From Pedobacter westerhofensis (GTDB taxonomy: Bacteria; Bacteroidota; Bacteroidia; Sphingobacteriales; Sphingobacteriaceae): a DNA stretch of 64,000 nt. The translations under genes and the position numbers were made by a program. Positions 7,507 through 63,204 of the stretch are shown here, piece by piece. Below the pieces are notes generated by a model, which worked only from the letters and a program-made list of their open reading frames with translations, searched no databases and was not told the origin of the DNA. The stretch spans positions 248,001 to 312,000 of the forward strand of contig NZ_FXTN01000004.1 of assembly GCF_900182595.1 (NCBI RefSeq). Reading direction: 5' to 3'. Within the stretch, counting starts at the first letter, position 1. Each line of letters opens with the position of its first letter.

Positions 7507-10500
7507 AGATCTCAGATTACGCCGTAAAAAACGGCCAGTTCACCCTGGTGATCTTTATCATGATCATCGTGCTGGGCATTACCACGATGCTGAATATGCC
7601 GCGGTCCGAAGACCCGGAAATGCACGCCCCATTCTTTTCAGTAATCATTATTTACCCAGGTACCAGTCCGAGGGACATTGAAGACCGCGTAGTTACGCCC
7701 CTTGAAAAAACGATTTCGGGGCTGGACGATATCAAAAAGGTACGTACCAGTATTTCCAATGGCGTGGCCGTGATCCGTGTAGAATATGTGTACAGCAGTA
7801 ACATCGATTCCAAATACCAGGAGATCGTCCGCGAGGTCAACAGCAAACGGCCGGAACTTCCTGCCGATATTGCCAGTATCGAAATCCAGAAACAGCAGCC
7901 CTCTGATGTGAATGTGCTGCAGGTAGCGCTGGTATCTGAGAACGCTGCCCGGAGCAAGCTGCAATACTATGCCGAGCGGCTGCAGGACGACCTGGAAAAG
8001 GTGCCTTCGCTCAAACAGGTGCAGATCTTTGGTTTGCCGGGCCAGCAGGTCAGGGTTGAGCTCGACCTGGAGAAAATGGCGCAGATGCACCTGCCGGTAA
8101 GCGCTATCGTCAACAGCCTGCACAGCGAAATGGCCAGTATCCCGGGAGGAAGCATTGATGCCGGAAAGCAAACTTTCAATATCAAATCCAACGATTACAG
8201 AACACTTGATGCCGTAAATAATACGATTGTATACTCTGCAGGCGGAAAGAATATCCTGTTGAAAAACATCGCCCGCGTCTATTACGGATATGGTGAAGAA
8301 CAGCATATTGCCCGCCTCAACGGCCACCGCTGCGTTTTTGTCGTAGCTGCCCAAAAGGAAAAAGAAAACATCAGTAAAACGCAGCTGGCCTACGTCGCCA
8401 CGCTGGCCAACTTCAAAAAGCAGCTGCCGGCGAATATAGACCTGGTGCAGAATTTTGACCAGGCAAACAATGTAAACAGGCGGCTGACAGGCCTGGGACA
8501 TGATTTTATCATTGCGATCCTGCTGGTAGCCATCACGCTGCTGCCCCTGGGTTTCCGCCCCGCGGTGATCGTGATGATTTCCATCCCGCTGTCACTGGCC
8601 ATAGGTATTGTACTGCTGCAGCTGTTTGGCTTTAACCTCAACCAGCTCAGTATTGTAGGTTTGGTGGTTGCACTGGGGCTGCTGGTAGATGACAGCATTG
8701 TGGTGGTGGAGAATATCGAGCGCTGGATGCTGGAAGGGCACAGCCGCCTGGAAGCCACGCTCAAAGCCACAGGGCAGATCGGTATGGCCGTAGTGGGCTG
8801 TACCGTGGTACTGATCATTGCATTTATGCCGCTCGTGTTTTTGCCTGAAGGTTCCGGAGATTTTATCAGGTGCCTGCCACTGGCCGTGATCTTCTGTGTA
8901 CTGGCTTCGATGTTTGTTTCTTTAACGATCATCCCCTTTTTATCCAGCCGCCTGCTGAAAAACCATACCGGAAACCCCGAAGGGAATTTCCTGATGCGCG
9001 GACTAAAAAAACTGATCCACGGCAGTTACGCACGTTTGCTGGACAAGGCGCTGGACAAACCTTTCCTCACGATCGGAGTGGCCGTAGTGCTTTTTTCTGC
9101 CTCGATCTACCTGTTCGGCGTAATCGGTTTCAGTTTGTTCCCGGCTTCGGAGAAACCACAGTTCCTGATCAATATCACCACGCCAAGCCAGTCTAACATC
9201 CCTTACACAGACACTGTGGCAAGGGCAATAGAAAAACAGCTGAAAAGAGAGCCGCTGATCAAATATTATGCGTCCAATATCGGCAGGGGAAACCCGCGGA
9301 TCTACTACAATGTGATCCCCGAAAACAACCGCAGTGATTTCGCACAGCTGTTTGTTCAGCTGGACGAAGAAACCAGTCCCGATGAAAAACTGGCGCTGAT
9401 CCAGCAGCTGCAGCAGCGCTGGGCACATTACCCCGGCGCTAAGGTAGAAGTGAAAAACTTTGAACAGGGCCCGCCGGTAATTGCCCCGGTGGAAGTGCGC
9501 GTTTTTGGGGATAACCTGGATACGCTGCGCGCCTTATCAATGAGGGTAGAACAGATGCTGCACCAGACCCCCGGAACCATGTACATCAATAATCCGGTGA
9601 GCCTGCTGAAAAGCGATATCCGTATTGCGGTAAATAAAGAGAAGGCGCAGCAGCTGGGCGTATCGTCGGTTAATATCGATCAGATAGCCAGGCTGGCGGT
9701 AACCGGCCTCAATATGGGCACTTACTACAACAATGACAATAAATATGGCTACACTGTACTGCTTACCCGGATGAAAGAGGGCAGGCCCAGTCTTGACGCT
9801 TTCCGCAACCTGTATGTGAACAATGTTCAGGGCAATGCTTTGCCCTTAAACCAGGTGGCGGGGCTGCAGCTGGAATCTTCACCGGCAATCATCAACCACC
9901 AGGAGAAGAAGAGGGTGGTCTCGGTACAGGCAAACCTGCAGAAGGGCTATCTGGCCAGCCGTGTCATACAGGATGTGATCAATAAAATGGACAAAATGAA
10001 ACTGCCTCCCGGATACAGCTATGAGATGGGCGGAGAGCTTGAATCGCAGAACAATTCATTCGGAGGCTTCATGAGCATTATCCTGGTGACGGTATTTATG
10101 TTTGTTGCCGTACTGGTACTGCTGTTTAAAACCTTTAAAAGTATGCTCATCATTCTGTCTGTGATCCCGCTGGGGATTGTAGGTGCTGCGGTGGCACTTT
10201 GGGTCACAGGAAATTCGCTGTCCTTTATCGCTGTGGTGGGCCTGATTGCACTGGCAGGAATAGAAGTGAAGAATACGATTTTGCTGGTCGATTTTACCAA
10301 TCAGCTGCGGAAAAAAGGAATGAGCCTGCATGATGCGATACGTGAAGCCGGAGAAGTCAGGTTTTTACCGATCGTGCTCACTTCCCTGACAGCCATCGGC
10401 GGATTGATCCCGATTGCGGTTTCTACGAACCCGCTGATCTCACCGCTGGCCATCGTACTGATTGGCGGGCTGATCAGCTCTACTTTACTGTCCAGGATTG

Positions 10501-35560: not shown

Positions 35561-36091
35561 ATGTTACTAACCGAACGAACCAACTGGCAAACGTTTAAAG
35601 CTACATTAGAACAATATCCGGACTTAACCCTACAATTCCAGTATGCGCAGGATCAATGGGTTGATGCATCGTATCATATCACTGAAATCAAGCAGGCCCC
35701 GATCGTTTCTGTAGACTGCGGAGGAATCATGAATACCTGGACAGAAGTAATCGTGCAGCTCTGGGAACCTGAACAGCGCGATACCGAAAGGGCAATGCCG
35801 GTGAGCAAGGCTTTGTCTATCGTACGCCTCGTGGAGCAGTCGCTGCCACTAAACCCGATTGGCATCGTGAAGATTGAATTTGGCAATTCACAGTTTGACA
35901 CCAGGCAAATGTATCCGGGAGAATTTATCATCAGTGATGGTAACCTGATTGTCAACCTGGTTCCTGATTATACGCAGTGCAAAGCCACCGGACGGGGACA
36001 GACTTGCGGAGATACCAATAAACCCAAGTTACAAATGATCAACCTGGCAGGAGCGGGGCAAACCTGTGAGCCCGGTTCCGGCTGCTGCTAA
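35561..36091 (+). CDS. DUF6428 protein with a Cys-rich tail, part of the ars operon
   Basis: A 176-residue cytoplasmic protein of the DUF6428 type, which I associate with arsenic operons of Bacteroidota. The body is beta-rich (YHITEIKQAPIVSVDCGGIMNTWTE). The last 45 residues hold five Cys in TQCKATGRGQTCGD, then GAGQTCEPGSGCC. Such a tail could bind As(III) as a chaperone or sensor, but that is inference. It follows arsR by 38 bases, with an ArsR-type operator between, and precedes the arsN-like gene by seven bases. Confidence 0.8.
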   Translation: MLLTERTNWQTFKATLEQYPDLTLQFQYAQDQWVDASYHITEIKQAPIVSVDCGGIMNTWTEVIVQLWEPEQRDTERAMPVSKALSIVRLVEQSLPLNPIGIVKIEFGNSQFDTRQMYPGEFIISDGNLIVNLVPDYTQCKATGRGQTCGDTNKPKLQMINLAGAGQTCEPGSGCC

Positions 36092-36098
36092 CTGAATT

Positions 36099-36590
36099 AT
36101 GGAAATCGTAGAATTAGCTCAAAATCATTGGGAAGATGTCAGGGCAATCTATCTGCAGGGGATAGCCACAAAACAGGCAACTTTTCAGACAACAGCATCA
36201 GAATGGGAAGAATGGGATCACTCTCACCTCCCGAAAGTAAGGTACGTTGCACTTATAGATCAGTCCGTTGCGGGCTGGGTAGCGCTGTCAGCGGTATCGT
36301 CAAGGTGCGTATATGCCGGCGTGGCGGAGGTCAGTGTTTATGTCCATCAGGATTTCAGGGCCCGGGGTGTTGGAGTAGCTTTAATGCAAAGAGTAATCAC
36401 CGAAAGTGAGTTGAATAATATCTGGACCTTACAGTCCGGCATTTTCCCGGAAAATACCGCAAGCATCGGCCTGCATGAAAAATGCGGGTTCCGCAAAGTT
36501 GGCTATCGCGAAAAGATCGGCAAAATGGATGGGATCTGGCGCAATACTGTATTGATGGAAAGAAGAAGTAAAATAAGGGGACAAGATTAA
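36099..36590 (+). CDS. ArsN-like GNAT acetyltransferase
   Basis: A 163-residue acetyltransferase of the phosphinothricin acetyltransferase type. The acetyl-CoA loop reads FRARGVGVALM, and the family's GIFPENTASIGLHEKCGFRKVGYREKIGKMDGIWRNTVLMER ending is nearly complete. In ars operons such enzymes (ArsN1) acetylate the arsenic-containing antibiotic arsinothricin. Position in this operon makes that function likely, but phosphinothricin or another amino acid analogue is possible. It lies seven bases after DUF6428 and eight before arsC, so it is translated from one transcript with them. Confidence 0.85.
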   Translation: MEIVELAQNHWEDVRAIYLQGIATKQATFQTTASEWEEWDHSHLPKVRYVALIDQSVAGWVALSAVSSRCVYAGVAEVSVYVHQDFRARGVGVALMQRVITESELNNIWTLQSGIFPENTASIGLHEKCGFRKVGYREKIGKMDGIWRNTVLMERRSKIRGQD

Positions 36591-36597
36591 GTTATAA

Positions 36598-37017
36598 ATG
36601 AAAAAAGTATTGGTACTCTGTACCGGCAACAGCTGCAGGAGCCAGCTGGCCGAAGGTTATTTAAAAAGCTTTGCAGGCAATGCTGCCGAAATATATAGCG
36701 CAGGGATAGAAACACATGGTGTAAACCCAAAAGCTGTTCAGGTCATGGCCGAAGATCATATCGATATCTCAAACCATACCTCCAATCATGTGGATGAATA
36801 TTCAGGAATTGATTTTGATGCGGTGATCACGGTGTGCGACAATGCCAGTGAGGCATGCCCTGTCTTTCCCGGCAACATAAAACGTTATCACTATAACTTT
36901 CCCGATCCTGCAAAAGCAACAGGAACAGCGGAGGAAATCATGAATGAATTCAGACGGGTGCGCGAGCTGATCAAAGCTTATTCAGCAGATTTTGTGATCC
37001 GCCATCTCAGTAATTAA
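36598..37017 (+). CDS. arsC: Arsenate reductase, thioredoxin-linked (LMW phosphatase fold)
   Basis: Reduces arsenate to arsenite for export. It has 139 residues with the low-molecular-weight phosphatase loop CTGNSCRS (Cys8, Arg14) and the two further redox Cys (Cys80 and Cys87, in [12 protein letters not shown]). These give the triple-Cys relay of B. subtilis-type, thioredoxin-dependent ArsC. The Asp of FPDP is the expected general acid. All key residues are present. Its stop overlaps the acr3 start by one base (TAATG), so the enzyme and the arsenite exporter are translationally coupled. Confidence 0.95.
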
Positions 37018-38096
37018 TGGGTAATGATCATTGTTATCCGGCCGCAGAGCGAAGAAAGCTGGGCTTTCTGGATCGCTTTCTTACCTTATGGATTTTTACT
37101 GCGATGGCCGCAGGTATAGCGCTGGGGTATTTTGTGCCCTCATCTTCTCAGGTTATCAATTCCTTTTCCAGCGGCACTACAAATATCCCTCTGGCCATTG
37201 GCCTCATCCTGATGATGTACCCGCCACTGGCGAAAGTAAGATATGAAAAGATGGGAGAGGTGTTTAAGGACACGAAAGTATTGTCTGTGTCGCTGATCCT
37301 CAACTGGGTGATCGGTCCGCTGCTGATGTTTTTTCTGGCGATCACATTTCTGCGGGATTATCCGGACTATATGGTTGGCCTGATCCTGATCGGGCTTGCC
37401 CGCTGTATTGCCATGGTGGTGGTCTGGAATGAACTTGCAGAGGGCAACCGGGAATATGCAGCGGGGCTGATTGCGCTGAACAGTATATTTCAGGTGCTGC
37501 TTTACAGTGTGTTTGCTTATCTCTTTATTACTGTGCTGCCACCGTTTTTTGGATTAAAAAGCCTTCAGGTTAATATTACTATGGTGGAAATTGCTAAAAG
37601 TGTGGGAGTCTATCTTGGTATTCCGTTTGTCCTGGGGATCATCAGCAGGTATGCGCTGATCAGGCTAAAGGGCGTAGACTGGTTCCAGGAAGAGTTTGTT
37701 CCCGTCATTTCTCCAGTTACACTGATCGCACTGCTGTTTACAATCGTGATTATGTTTAGCCTGAAGGGGAACCTGATTGTAAAGATCCCAATGGACGTGC
37801 TGCGGATTGCCCTGCCGCTGCTGATCTATTTTTCGATTATGTTTGTGATCAGCTTTTTCGCTGGCAAATACTTTGGAGCGGATTATTCCAGAAGCGCTGC
37901 GATTGCTTTTACTGCTACCGGAAATAACTTTGAACTGGCAATTGCGGTTGCAATTGGTGTTTTTGGTATCAATTCCGGAGAGGCTTTTGCAGGTGTGATT
38001 GGGCCATTGGTTGAAGTTCCGGCATTGATTGCACTGGTGAATGTGGCGTTCTGGTTCAGGAAGAGGTATTATGTGAGGGAAGGGATTGTTGATTGA
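37017..38096 (+). CDS. acr3: ACR3-family arsenite efflux permease
   Basis: An integral membrane arsenite/H+ antiporter of 359 residues with about ten membrane helices. The ACR3 signature [18 protein letters not shown] contains the conserved Cys needed for transport. The late half has the family's [20 protein letters not shown] repeat. It completes the ars operon: arsenate enters the cell, ArsC reduces it and ACR3 exports the arsenite. No arsA ATPase is present, as usual for ACR3. The start overlaps the arsC stop. After its end the operon runs into repeat-rich non-coding DNA. Confidence 0.95.
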
Positions 38097-38197
38097 GATT
38101 CCTCTAAAGAATTACCTAATGATATAAATTAGAGATTAATATTAAGAATATTCTATACACCTGTATCACAATACACCCACGCCGCAGCAAAAGAAAA

Positions 38198-38393
38198 TCA
38201 GGTCAAGCATTTTCAGGCCTATAATCTCTCAGGTCAAGTGATTTCAGGCGAACCAAAAACAAATGTCAAGTAAAAACAGTTCAACTAATAAAACCCAATA
38301 ATTACTATTCCTAATTTGTCAAGTAATCTCAGTATAAGACAAATCAGTAATTTACTTTTTTACTGTACACTAATATCAGTATAGGACAAATCA
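38198..38393. repeat. Cluster of short direct repeats, possible mobile-element end remnant
   Basis: Two repeat types lie in a 540-base gene-free stretch. Type A (GTCAAGTnATTTCAG-like) has four copies starting near 38202, 38233, 38265 and 38318; the first two are nearly identical (TCAGGTCAAG...TTTCAGGC, 38198 and 38229) and 31 bases apart. Type B (TCAGTATAAGACAAATCA) has two copies, 38329-38346 and 38376-38393, differing by one base. Multiple short internal repeats at an end that begins TGTCAAG resemble the ends of IS21-type elements, but no transposase is present, so this is inference. Confidence 0.55.
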
Positions 38394-38636
38394 TGCACTG
38401 GTCGTGTACTGCTTTGTGTTGATAAGGTGTTGAAGAGGCATTGCTTTGATGTTGGGCAGGGGTTGGTTTGGGTAAAAGACGAAGCAACCCGCGTTCAACG
38501 CCAAGCGAACGCGTTTGCAACCTTATTCCAATACAAACCAGTATACAACTAGTGTACACCTGGTATCTATCTGCATATGTAATGTATATACTAATAAGGC
38601 ATCAGGTTGGTAATTCATTGTATGCCATGAGGATGA
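38394..38636. other. Gene-free DNA with a 7-bp GC-rich inverted repeat
   Basis: CGCGTTC (38490-38496) and GAACGCG (38507-38513) form a 7-bp stem with a 10-base loop, more GC-rich than the surroundings. There is no T-tract. It could be part of a small RNA or an element remnant. I see no coding sequence in this stretch. Confidence 0.3.
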
Positions 38637-39593
38637 TCAGCATTTGCCCTCTGCAGCAGGCAACTGTTTAATAAAATCAATATTACGCGTTAAGCCTTTA
38701 AACTTGGTACGCTTGACCGCAGAATGCTTAAAGATCTGTTTGAATACATCCTCGGTGATATCCAGCCAGTCCTCGCGCTTCATTTGCAGCAACTGCGCAT
38801 TGGGCTCAAACGCAGGCTCCGTATGCGGAGCAGAAAACCTGTTCCAGGGACAAACATCCTGGCAGATATCGCAGCCAAACATCCAGTTCTCCATTTGGTT
38901 GCCAAATGTGGCAGGAATCTCCTCCCTCAGCTCAATGGTAAGATAGGATATACACTTATTTGCATCAATCACAAAAGGAGAGAGGATCGCATCCGTAGGG
39001 CAGGCATCAATACATTTGGTGCAGGTGCCGCAGTGGTCAGTGGCAAAAGGCGCATCATATTCAAGGTCGAGATCAACAATCAGCTCTGCAAGAAAGAAAA
39101 AGGAACCACTTTTTTTGCTGATGATATTGCTGTTTTTTCCTACCCAGCCAATCCCTGCACGTTTAGCCCAGGCACGGTCAAGCACCGGCGCAGAATCCAC
39201 AAAGGCCCTTCCGCTAACCGCACCGATCTGCTCATTGATAAAATTCAGCAACTGGAACATTTTGTCTTTAATTACCGTATGGTAATCAGCACCGTAGGCA
39301 TATTTGGAGATCTTTGGCGCATTGGGGTCGCTCTGCTGTTCAACCGGGAAATAATTGAGCGTGAGCGAGATCACAGATTTGGCATCCTCTACCAACAGGC
39401 GTGGGTCCAGCCGCTTGTCAAAGTGGTTCTCCATGTATGCCATTTGCCCGTGGTGCTGGTTCTTCAGCCAGTTTTCAAGCCTTGGCGCCTCTTCTTCAAG
39501 AAATCCCGCTTTGGCAATACCGCATTGCATAAAGCCTAAGCGCAGGGCTTCGTCTTTGATCAGCTTACTATATTTCGCGGCATTGTTGTACAT
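38637..39593 (-). CDS. queG: Epoxyqueuosine reductase
   Basis: Catalyses the last step of queuosine synthesis in tRNA, reducing epoxyqueuosine with a cobalamin and two [4Fe-4S] clusters. The ferredoxin-type motifs are complete: [12 protein letters not shown] and [11 protein letters not shown]. The N-terminal part holds the cobalamin/substrate residues ([25 protein letters not shown]). The start is set at the ATG at 39593 (MYNNAAKY); the frame extends to 39683, but that piece is not family-like. The length of 318 residues is normal. It is divergent from a small membrane protein and adjoins the repeat region on its 3' side. Confidence 0.94.
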
Positions 39594-39663
39594 CTCAGCT
39601 GCAAAGGTATGAAAACCTTTTACGTATAGTTTTGTTATCTGAATGTAACCACAATCTAAATTT

Positions 39664-39891
39664 ATGGAAAATACAGATCCCAAATACTCGGAAAACCCTG
39701 ATGGGAACGCAAAACCGGTTGAACATGATTATGCAAAGCATGAGCAGGATCCCGGTCCGTCGCCTCAGGCTGTGAATGAAGAAAATGATAAAGGTGCAGG
39801 GCCCACCATGAAATGGATCATCCCCATCCTGATCATTATCCTTGCTGTTTTATACTGGATATTTTTTAAAGACCGCCCGCATACCAGTTAA
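39664..39891 (+). CDS. Small single-pass membrane protein
   Basis: A 75-residue protein with a hydrophilic acidic N-terminal part (about 1-48, rich in Asp, Glu, Pro, His) and one membrane helix near the C-terminus ([20 protein letters not shown]), followed by KDRPHTS. The layout is a tail-anchored or single-pass inner-membrane protein. I know no function. It is divergent from queG (71 bases between starts) and ends at a perfect bidirectional hairpin, which supports it being a real transcript. Confidence 0.65.
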
Positions 39892-63040: not shown

Positions 63041-63081
63041 ATATTAGTTGTTGCTGGGGTTGGAGATGATCTGGCTTCGCG

Positions 63082-63159
63082 AAAAAATGGGATTAAAATA
63101 TCGTCGCTGCCTGCTGCTGAAACGCAGCAGAAGGCGATGATATTTCAATCCCATTTTTT
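63082..63159. terminator. 78-base hairpin after the stress protein gene
   Basis: A 26-base arm beginning AAAAAATGGGATT (63082-63107) pairs with 63134-63159 with two mismatches, and an inner CTGCTG/CAGCAG stem occupies the middle. It ends in CATTTTTTTT. It is probably the terminator. Its shape and ends match the hairpin at 45587-45667. Confidence 0.75.
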
Positions 63160-63204
63160 TTCAGGGTATCCTGTAGCATGATGGCTTGTGATATCTGTTA
63201 CCTA

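Follow-up and report, generated by a model that had tools for sequence, protein, structure and literature searches.

The question raised by this locus is what has left a dense cluster of short repeats between two convergent genes of Pedobacter westerhofensis, encoding an SBF/ACR3-type carrier (37017-38096, + strand) and queG (38637-39683, - strand), in a window of 64,000 nucleotides. The first-pass annotation had reported four GTCAAG...TCAG motifs and two copies of TCAGTATARGACAAATCA in a gene-free stretch, and had suggested the decayed end of an IS21-family element that might have carried in the ars operon. Motif searches and shuffles recovered all of these repeats at the reported positions, with the TCAGTATARGACAAATCA copies at 38329-38346 and 38376-38393 and the GTCAAGNNNNNTCAG-type motif copies, designated here as putative right-end repeats, as follows:

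38202..38216, + strand, right-end repeat 1 (GTCAAGCATTTTCAG), from the motif search
38233..38247, + strand, right-end repeat 2, from the motif search
38265..38279, + strand, right-end repeat 3, from the motif search with one mismatch
38318..38332, + strand, right-end repeat 4, terminal, from the motif search

Exact matches to the GTCAAGNNNNNTCAG-type motif number three in the 64 kb, all of them within the cluster, while the count at one mismatch reaches 8 across the window against a shuffle mean of 3.7, with at least 8 in 5 of 100 shuffles. The whole-window count is thus unremarkable, and the unusual part is the clustering, which brings four of the eight into 131 bp. The TCAGTATARGACAAATCA pair exceeds chance, two matches at up to two mismatches being found in none of 100 shuffles. 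The cluster proved not to be wholly gene-free: approximately its first 70 bases come from the 3' end of a transposase gene.

The origin of this gene end was revealed by searching 38100-38640 against the own genome: a single strong second match (C17:72826-73001, 96%) covers the element's right end and the 3' end of a full-length gene for a 307-aa transposase (C17:72898-73818; L016 6896-7819, minus strand). The last 36 codons in the window (38163-38270) align to residues 272-307 of this protein and are closed by TAA at 38271-38273, and the repeats at C17 lie in and just past the 3' end of the transposase ORF; the right-end repeats of the window copy likewise overlap the 3' end of orfB in part. 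The window element, termed IS-1, therefore conforms to the annotated picture of a decayed insertion-sequence (IS) end that lacks its own transposase gene, in which just the 36 terminal codons and the right end remain:

38163..38273, + strand, tail of the IS-1 transposase gene comprising its final 36 codons and the TAA stop (86% amino acid identity, open frame)
38167..38341, + strand, IS-1 right-end remnant, IS3 family, truncated on the left side (96% over 176 bp to C17:72826-73001)
38330-38341, + strand, IS-1 terminus CAGTATAAGACA, placed via relatives with 3-bp target duplications

With just 36 codons kept in the window, the family models were scored on the C17 homologue, the one ORF around that copy to be compared with families, which reached 238 bits with the NCBIfam IS3 model NF033516 (cut-off 160) and 79 bits with the Pfam rve domain PF00665, and 25.6 bits with the IS21 transposase model (cut-off 160). 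Multiple terminal repeats are a feature of IS21 elements, and such repeats are indeed present at the right end here; the transposase, however, lies over the IS3 cut-off and far under that of IS21, so the IS21 identity was rejected. The annotated arrival of the ars operon on a mobile element found no support either, since the own-genome DNA search (E <= 10) listed no second copy of the IS end beyond the operon and the right end of the IS points at a hairpin, away from the operon. The view of the cluster as a remnant of an IS21-family element, or a non-autonomous end of one, by which the ars operon was carried in is accordingly so improbable that it can practically be set aside, and the operon as cargo of the IS is likewise unsupported. 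Within the operon, genes for a DUF6428 protein and a GNAT acetyltransferase were observed between the arsR-type regulator and arsC-like phosphatase genes (window 35561-36590).

The IS part of the cluster is in itself ordinary. Four matches to the C17 protein occur in the genome, comprising the C17 copy, the window remnant and two distant relatives (34% and 25% identity), and the C17 copy carries the sole full-length close transposase gene of this type. Its orfA (L016, about 8100-8180), as read from the sequence, has a stop after 23 codons, and an exact 3-bp duplication is absent around it. The C17 element, the sole one here with a full-length orfB of the type, may thus be inactive, and because of the stop in its orfA an active copy is not evident in the 40-contig assembly.

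Relatives of IS-1 were found in Pedobacter, Chitinophaga, Arcticibacter and other genera, and they share a common right end made of repeated GT(A/C)AA(A/G)...CAG motifs and a terminus of CAGTATAAGACA variants. By sequence comparison, the four GTCAAG...TCAG motifs correspond to the repeats that this Bacteroidota IS3 group carries in multiple copies at its right end. With a loose motif at 13 loci, two of which gave a single hit, the spacing was 31-33 bp in 18 of 25 cases, 64 bp in two and other in five. A distance of 31-33 bp corresponds to about three turns of B-DNA, and the repeats would be sites, aligned along one face of the helix, at which the transposase binds. IS3-family elements are characterised by 5'-TG...CA-3' ends, target duplications of 3-4 bp, and orfA followed in another frame by orfB, with fusion through a frameshift. 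The element ends were read as TGTC/TGTG...GACA from the copies in four complete genomes (G375, G346, G224 and G296), which cover five of five, seven of nine, four of five and three of four matches, respectively; both orfA and orfB are seen in L033. Among 24 clear-ended copies from these four genomes and five single copies, 21 carry a 3-bp target duplication and three do not, the 24 being what remains of 29 rows after L056 (the same copy as L079) and L054, L055, L059 and L060 (without a reliable left end) are taken out; with the latter four kept, the figure is 21 of 28. The duplications enclose the IS alone, with the hairpin outside.

The second TCAGTATARGACAAATCA copy lies beyond the terminus of IS-1. 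A BLAST search with 38336-38388 matched the right ends of other members of the group, namely L049 (90.6% over 53 bp), L055 (89.1% over 55 bp) and L052 (89.4% over 47 bp), and therefore the second TCAGTATAGGACA can be taken as the terminus of a second IS behind the first:

38342..38388, + strand, right-end remnant of IS-2 (second, related IS), terminus CAGTATAGGACA, from BLAST of 38336-38388

On this alignment each TCAGTATARGACAAATCA copy marks the right end of a separate IS, and the two ISs are related and abut. In the simplest history, IS-2 would have inserted first, at the 5' foot of the hairpin, IS-1 would then have inserted into the end of IS-2, and the left parts of both would afterwards have been deleted.

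The hairpin at which these ends stop has an arm structure that repeats with a step of 11 nt:

38401..38549, no strand assigned, core of the long hairpin, 58 bp predicted, with arms of 11-nt period; the whole element spans about 38389-38600, from the fold and the lag-11 score

Its lag-11 score is 25 of 44, reached in none of 400 shuffles and ranking first among lags 5-40 excluding 22 and 33. Sequence relatives in the own genome were located at C17 (two), C4:51 kb, C3 and C12, and a similar hairpin is also present at C7:370.8 kb. Lag 11 was significant in six of seven elements analysed as families, of which the own genome contributed six and G375 one; the exception is the relative at C3 (p 0.22). 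The arm pattern has eight own-genome matches at up to three mismatches, apart from six other-arm or arm hits, and none in 300 other genomes of the family at up to two mismatches, so a hairpin sequence conserved across the family was rejected (own genome alone, 1 of 301). Rfam at the gathering score gave no match in the window or in L016-L019. Two further structures were observed in this genome. At about 2140-2210 of L017 (G000 C4, 51.1 kb), an 11-nt hairpin is directly adjoined by a near-perfect palindrome whose stem exceeds 30 bp. Terminator-like hairpins at window 63081-63160 and L142 1153-1262 have a common core, GCTGCCTGCTGCTGAAACGCAGCAGAAGGC, with differing outer stems, and the shared core suggests another dispersed hairpin family in the genome.

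The cluster is probably the nested scar of two related IS3-family ISs at the 5' foot of a pre-existing, 11-nt-periodic intergenic hairpin. The association extends to the relatives. When 33 IS right flanks were pooled, the autocorrelation rose more than 0.03 above the median at lags 1, 11, 22 and 33 alone; individually, lag 11 ranked first with a shuffle p of at most 0.0025 in 14 of the 33 flanks and did not do so in 19, in a set where the end motif of 20 flanks had been chosen by eye after seeing the sequence. The set omits loci whose orfB or right end could not be placed (L034, L037-L044, L046, L047, L048, L057, L061, L064, L073, L210, L211, L214, L218 and L219), as well as additional copies of an IS already represented (L045, L074-L093 and L220-L222); among the omitted loci, L039 and L043 have strong lag-11 scores and L038 does not. 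At L035, L054, L059 and L060 the 11-nt period is present and the predicted folding is weak, while the clade A copies L050 (p 0.048) and L051 (p 0.174) have strong hairpins and a weak period.

The periodicity is one-sided and follows the transposase lineage. Significant 11-nt periodicity marks the right flank of 18 out of 20 copies of clades A and B (0 of 500 shuffles each), compared with two left flanks (L081 and L090). On the transposase tree, the periodic loci are nine of the 11 in clade A (support 90/97, not starred) and all five in clade B (support 100/100), and the 14 periodic loci require four label changes against 10.9 in shuffles, none of 500 shuffles being as low. In the four copies of a related IS3 lineage in G224 (L086-L089), which carry exact 3-bp duplications, neither flank is 11-periodic (right p 0.31-0.92; left p 0.02-0.98), and all four fetched copies lie, by eye, directly downstream of terminator-like hairpins. 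Since the periodic loci are confined to clades A and B and the G224 lineage sits at terminator-like hairpins, target choice looks like a lineage-specific trait. A similar right flank, GGAGCAAGCGGAAGTTGGGC..., was observed at L069, L071, L072 and L073, which belong to another IS lineage in different genomes, and suggests a further, sequence-specific landing site.

The step is shared between genomes and the sequence is not. In G375, GAGGTAGTTGC-type unit hairpins are found at the right end of five IS copies; the seven fetched copies of G346 show three units, TCTAGTCCACG at four, CAACCCCATCC at one and CTATGGTGAGT at two; TCTATACTCGG-type units stand at three fetched copies of G296; and the hairpin units of Chitinophaga barathri are TATCCTAGGAG. 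The 11-nt step is therefore general, and the hairpin sequence varies both between and within genomes. Elements of the two clades have their right ends against hairpins or arrays that have the step in common rather than a sequence, and they duplicate 3 bp of the target.

A hairpin that is cargo, belonging to the IS or to a MITE moved by its transposase, would agree with the G375 hairpin family, which adjoins an IS at five of its seven places, and with the C3 hairpin of the own genome, whose foot bears an IS-end-like sequence (77% over 52 bp). However, in 21 of 24 copies the 3-bp duplications directly flank the IS and leave the hairpin outside, and in G346 one IS adjoins three unrelated hairpin units. 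In G375, moreover, the left flank pairs with the far end of the hairpin in four of five copies (26-33 pairs across the joined site; 7 in L076), so the IS sits inside an arm. Hairpins free of any IS also occur, among them a clean one between convergent genes at G375:817320 and others recovered by the de novo and held-out scans described below. The cargo explanation is thus quite improbable. Homology, element ends, the duplications of the relatives, the one-sided association and the IS-free hairpins are established by sequence comparison, and because of the right-flank bias, the IS-bounding duplications and the IS-free hairpins, the hairpin appears to have been in place beforehand, as a landing site.

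It might alternatively be supposed that the hairpins act as transcription terminators or as structures at mRNA 3' ends, and that the IS targets terminators generally. The gene context was examined at 13 hairpin loci (14 table rows; the two from C17 were counted as one locus, which is divergent once the IS gene is ignored). Six loci, including that of the window, lie between convergent genes, as terminators would, and the placement of the G224 element points the same way; four, however, are divergent and three tandem, and the 11-nt step is absent from ordinary terminators. Terminators alone were rejected on these contexts, and the broader explanation is considered unlikely.

A de novo scan was made for periodicity overlapping a strong hairpin, in which lags 6-20 were treated alike. 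In 1.264 Mb, lag 11 gave seven hairpins and every other lag at most one. A held-out scan of 799 kb at the same thresholds gave two at lag 11, one at lag 8 and one at lag 14; one of the two lag-11 elements, L204, is an ordinary palindrome. No lag yielded a hairpin in 400 kb of G206, in which the IS is absent at E 1e-60; this says little, since the density in the other scans (9 in 2.063 Mb) predicts approximately 1.7. The scans combined (2.463 Mb) hold nine hairpins at lag 11 versus five across the other 14 lags, and the scan hairpins span 70-162 bp. A CCAAC-period pattern was found with period 11 in six of 151 family genomes, with period 10 in one and with period 12 in 23, a weak comparison in that simple repeats are frequent among the hits of period 12 and 12 is divisible by 3. 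Among the period-11 loci that were folded, L226 and L228 proved to be clear 11-nt hairpins, L223, L225 and L227 did not, and L224 was doubtful. An exception to the 11-nt step is L232 (G101:C1:238092-238116, another genus of the family), a long hairpin of period 10 with GATTGAGTTG units.

The 11-nt step may be a mutational by-product, in which a unit of fixed length is multiplied by slippage and by correction between the arms, and is read by neither the cell nor the IS; the same units in both arms of a hairpin, the fast turnover of units between and within genomes and the period-10 hairpin all agree with this, whereas the constancy of the unit length across unrelated sequences and the correlation, by lineage, of IS insertion with the step speak against it. 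This explanation is a serious possibility, if short of probable. Eleven base pairs make about one turn of A-form RNA, and an 11-bp step would be consistent with selection at the transcript level, but the same peaks at 22 and 33 arise when a unit of constant length is copied in tandem. It is tentatively proposed, as something possible rather than probable, that Bacteroidota hold a class of long extragenic hairpins defined by a helical-length 11-nt step and not by a sequence, and that IS3 lineages target the periodicity or structure itself, independently of sequence. The transposase would then recognise a periodic or hairpin structure.

Targeting of palindromes by IS3-family elements has precedents. 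According to the cited text, IS1397, ISKpn1 and ISPsy8 are IS3-family elements that target REP palindromes (PMC1525189), and they resemble the present elements in their family, in their insertion into extragenic palindromes and in a 3-bp duplication, which is stated there for ISPsy8 (PMC1525189). Their described target is a fixed sequence (PMC1525189), whereas the hairpins here are unrelated in sequence and have an 11-nt step in common; unlike the REP-targeting elements as described, the IS here is found next to the hairpin or within an arm of it, and its right end points inward. REP elements, which in the portions cited are given as 20-40 bp long and usually present in more than 100 copies per genome (PMC3733652, PMC2817692), are likewise extragenic palindromes serving as IS targets (PMC3733652, PMC2817692). 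The present hairpins differ in their length of 70-162 bp, in few copies per sequence family and in their period of 11, and with eight own-genome pattern hits and none in 300 other genomes the window hairpin was not assigned to the REP/BIME class.

The BrickBuilt MITE of Porphyromonas gingivalis, in which 23-nt units in tandem form stem-loops (PMC4596501), is similar in that it is an intergenic element of Bacteroidota whose tandem units build long stem-loops (PMC4596501). It differs from the hairpins here, as far as the cited portion goes, in its 23-nt unit, its single sequence family, its restriction to one species and its IS5-like terminal repeats (PMC4596501), and that portion does not describe it as an IS3 landing site (PMC4596501). 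In searches of the open-access literature, neither 11-nt-periodic hairpins nor such hairpins as IS targets were found by title or abstract, and the hairpins appear, as far as those searches go, to be an undescribed repeat class.

The observed sites are intergenic, and targeting of this kind should therefore be cheap for the host. Palindrome-homing ISs are known, and the targets described so far share sequence. A fixed unit length together with a fast sequence turnover calls for a mechanism, and one transposase lineage beside unrelated targets with an 11-base step offers a natural test of whether DNA shape, a cruciform or the helical phase is read.
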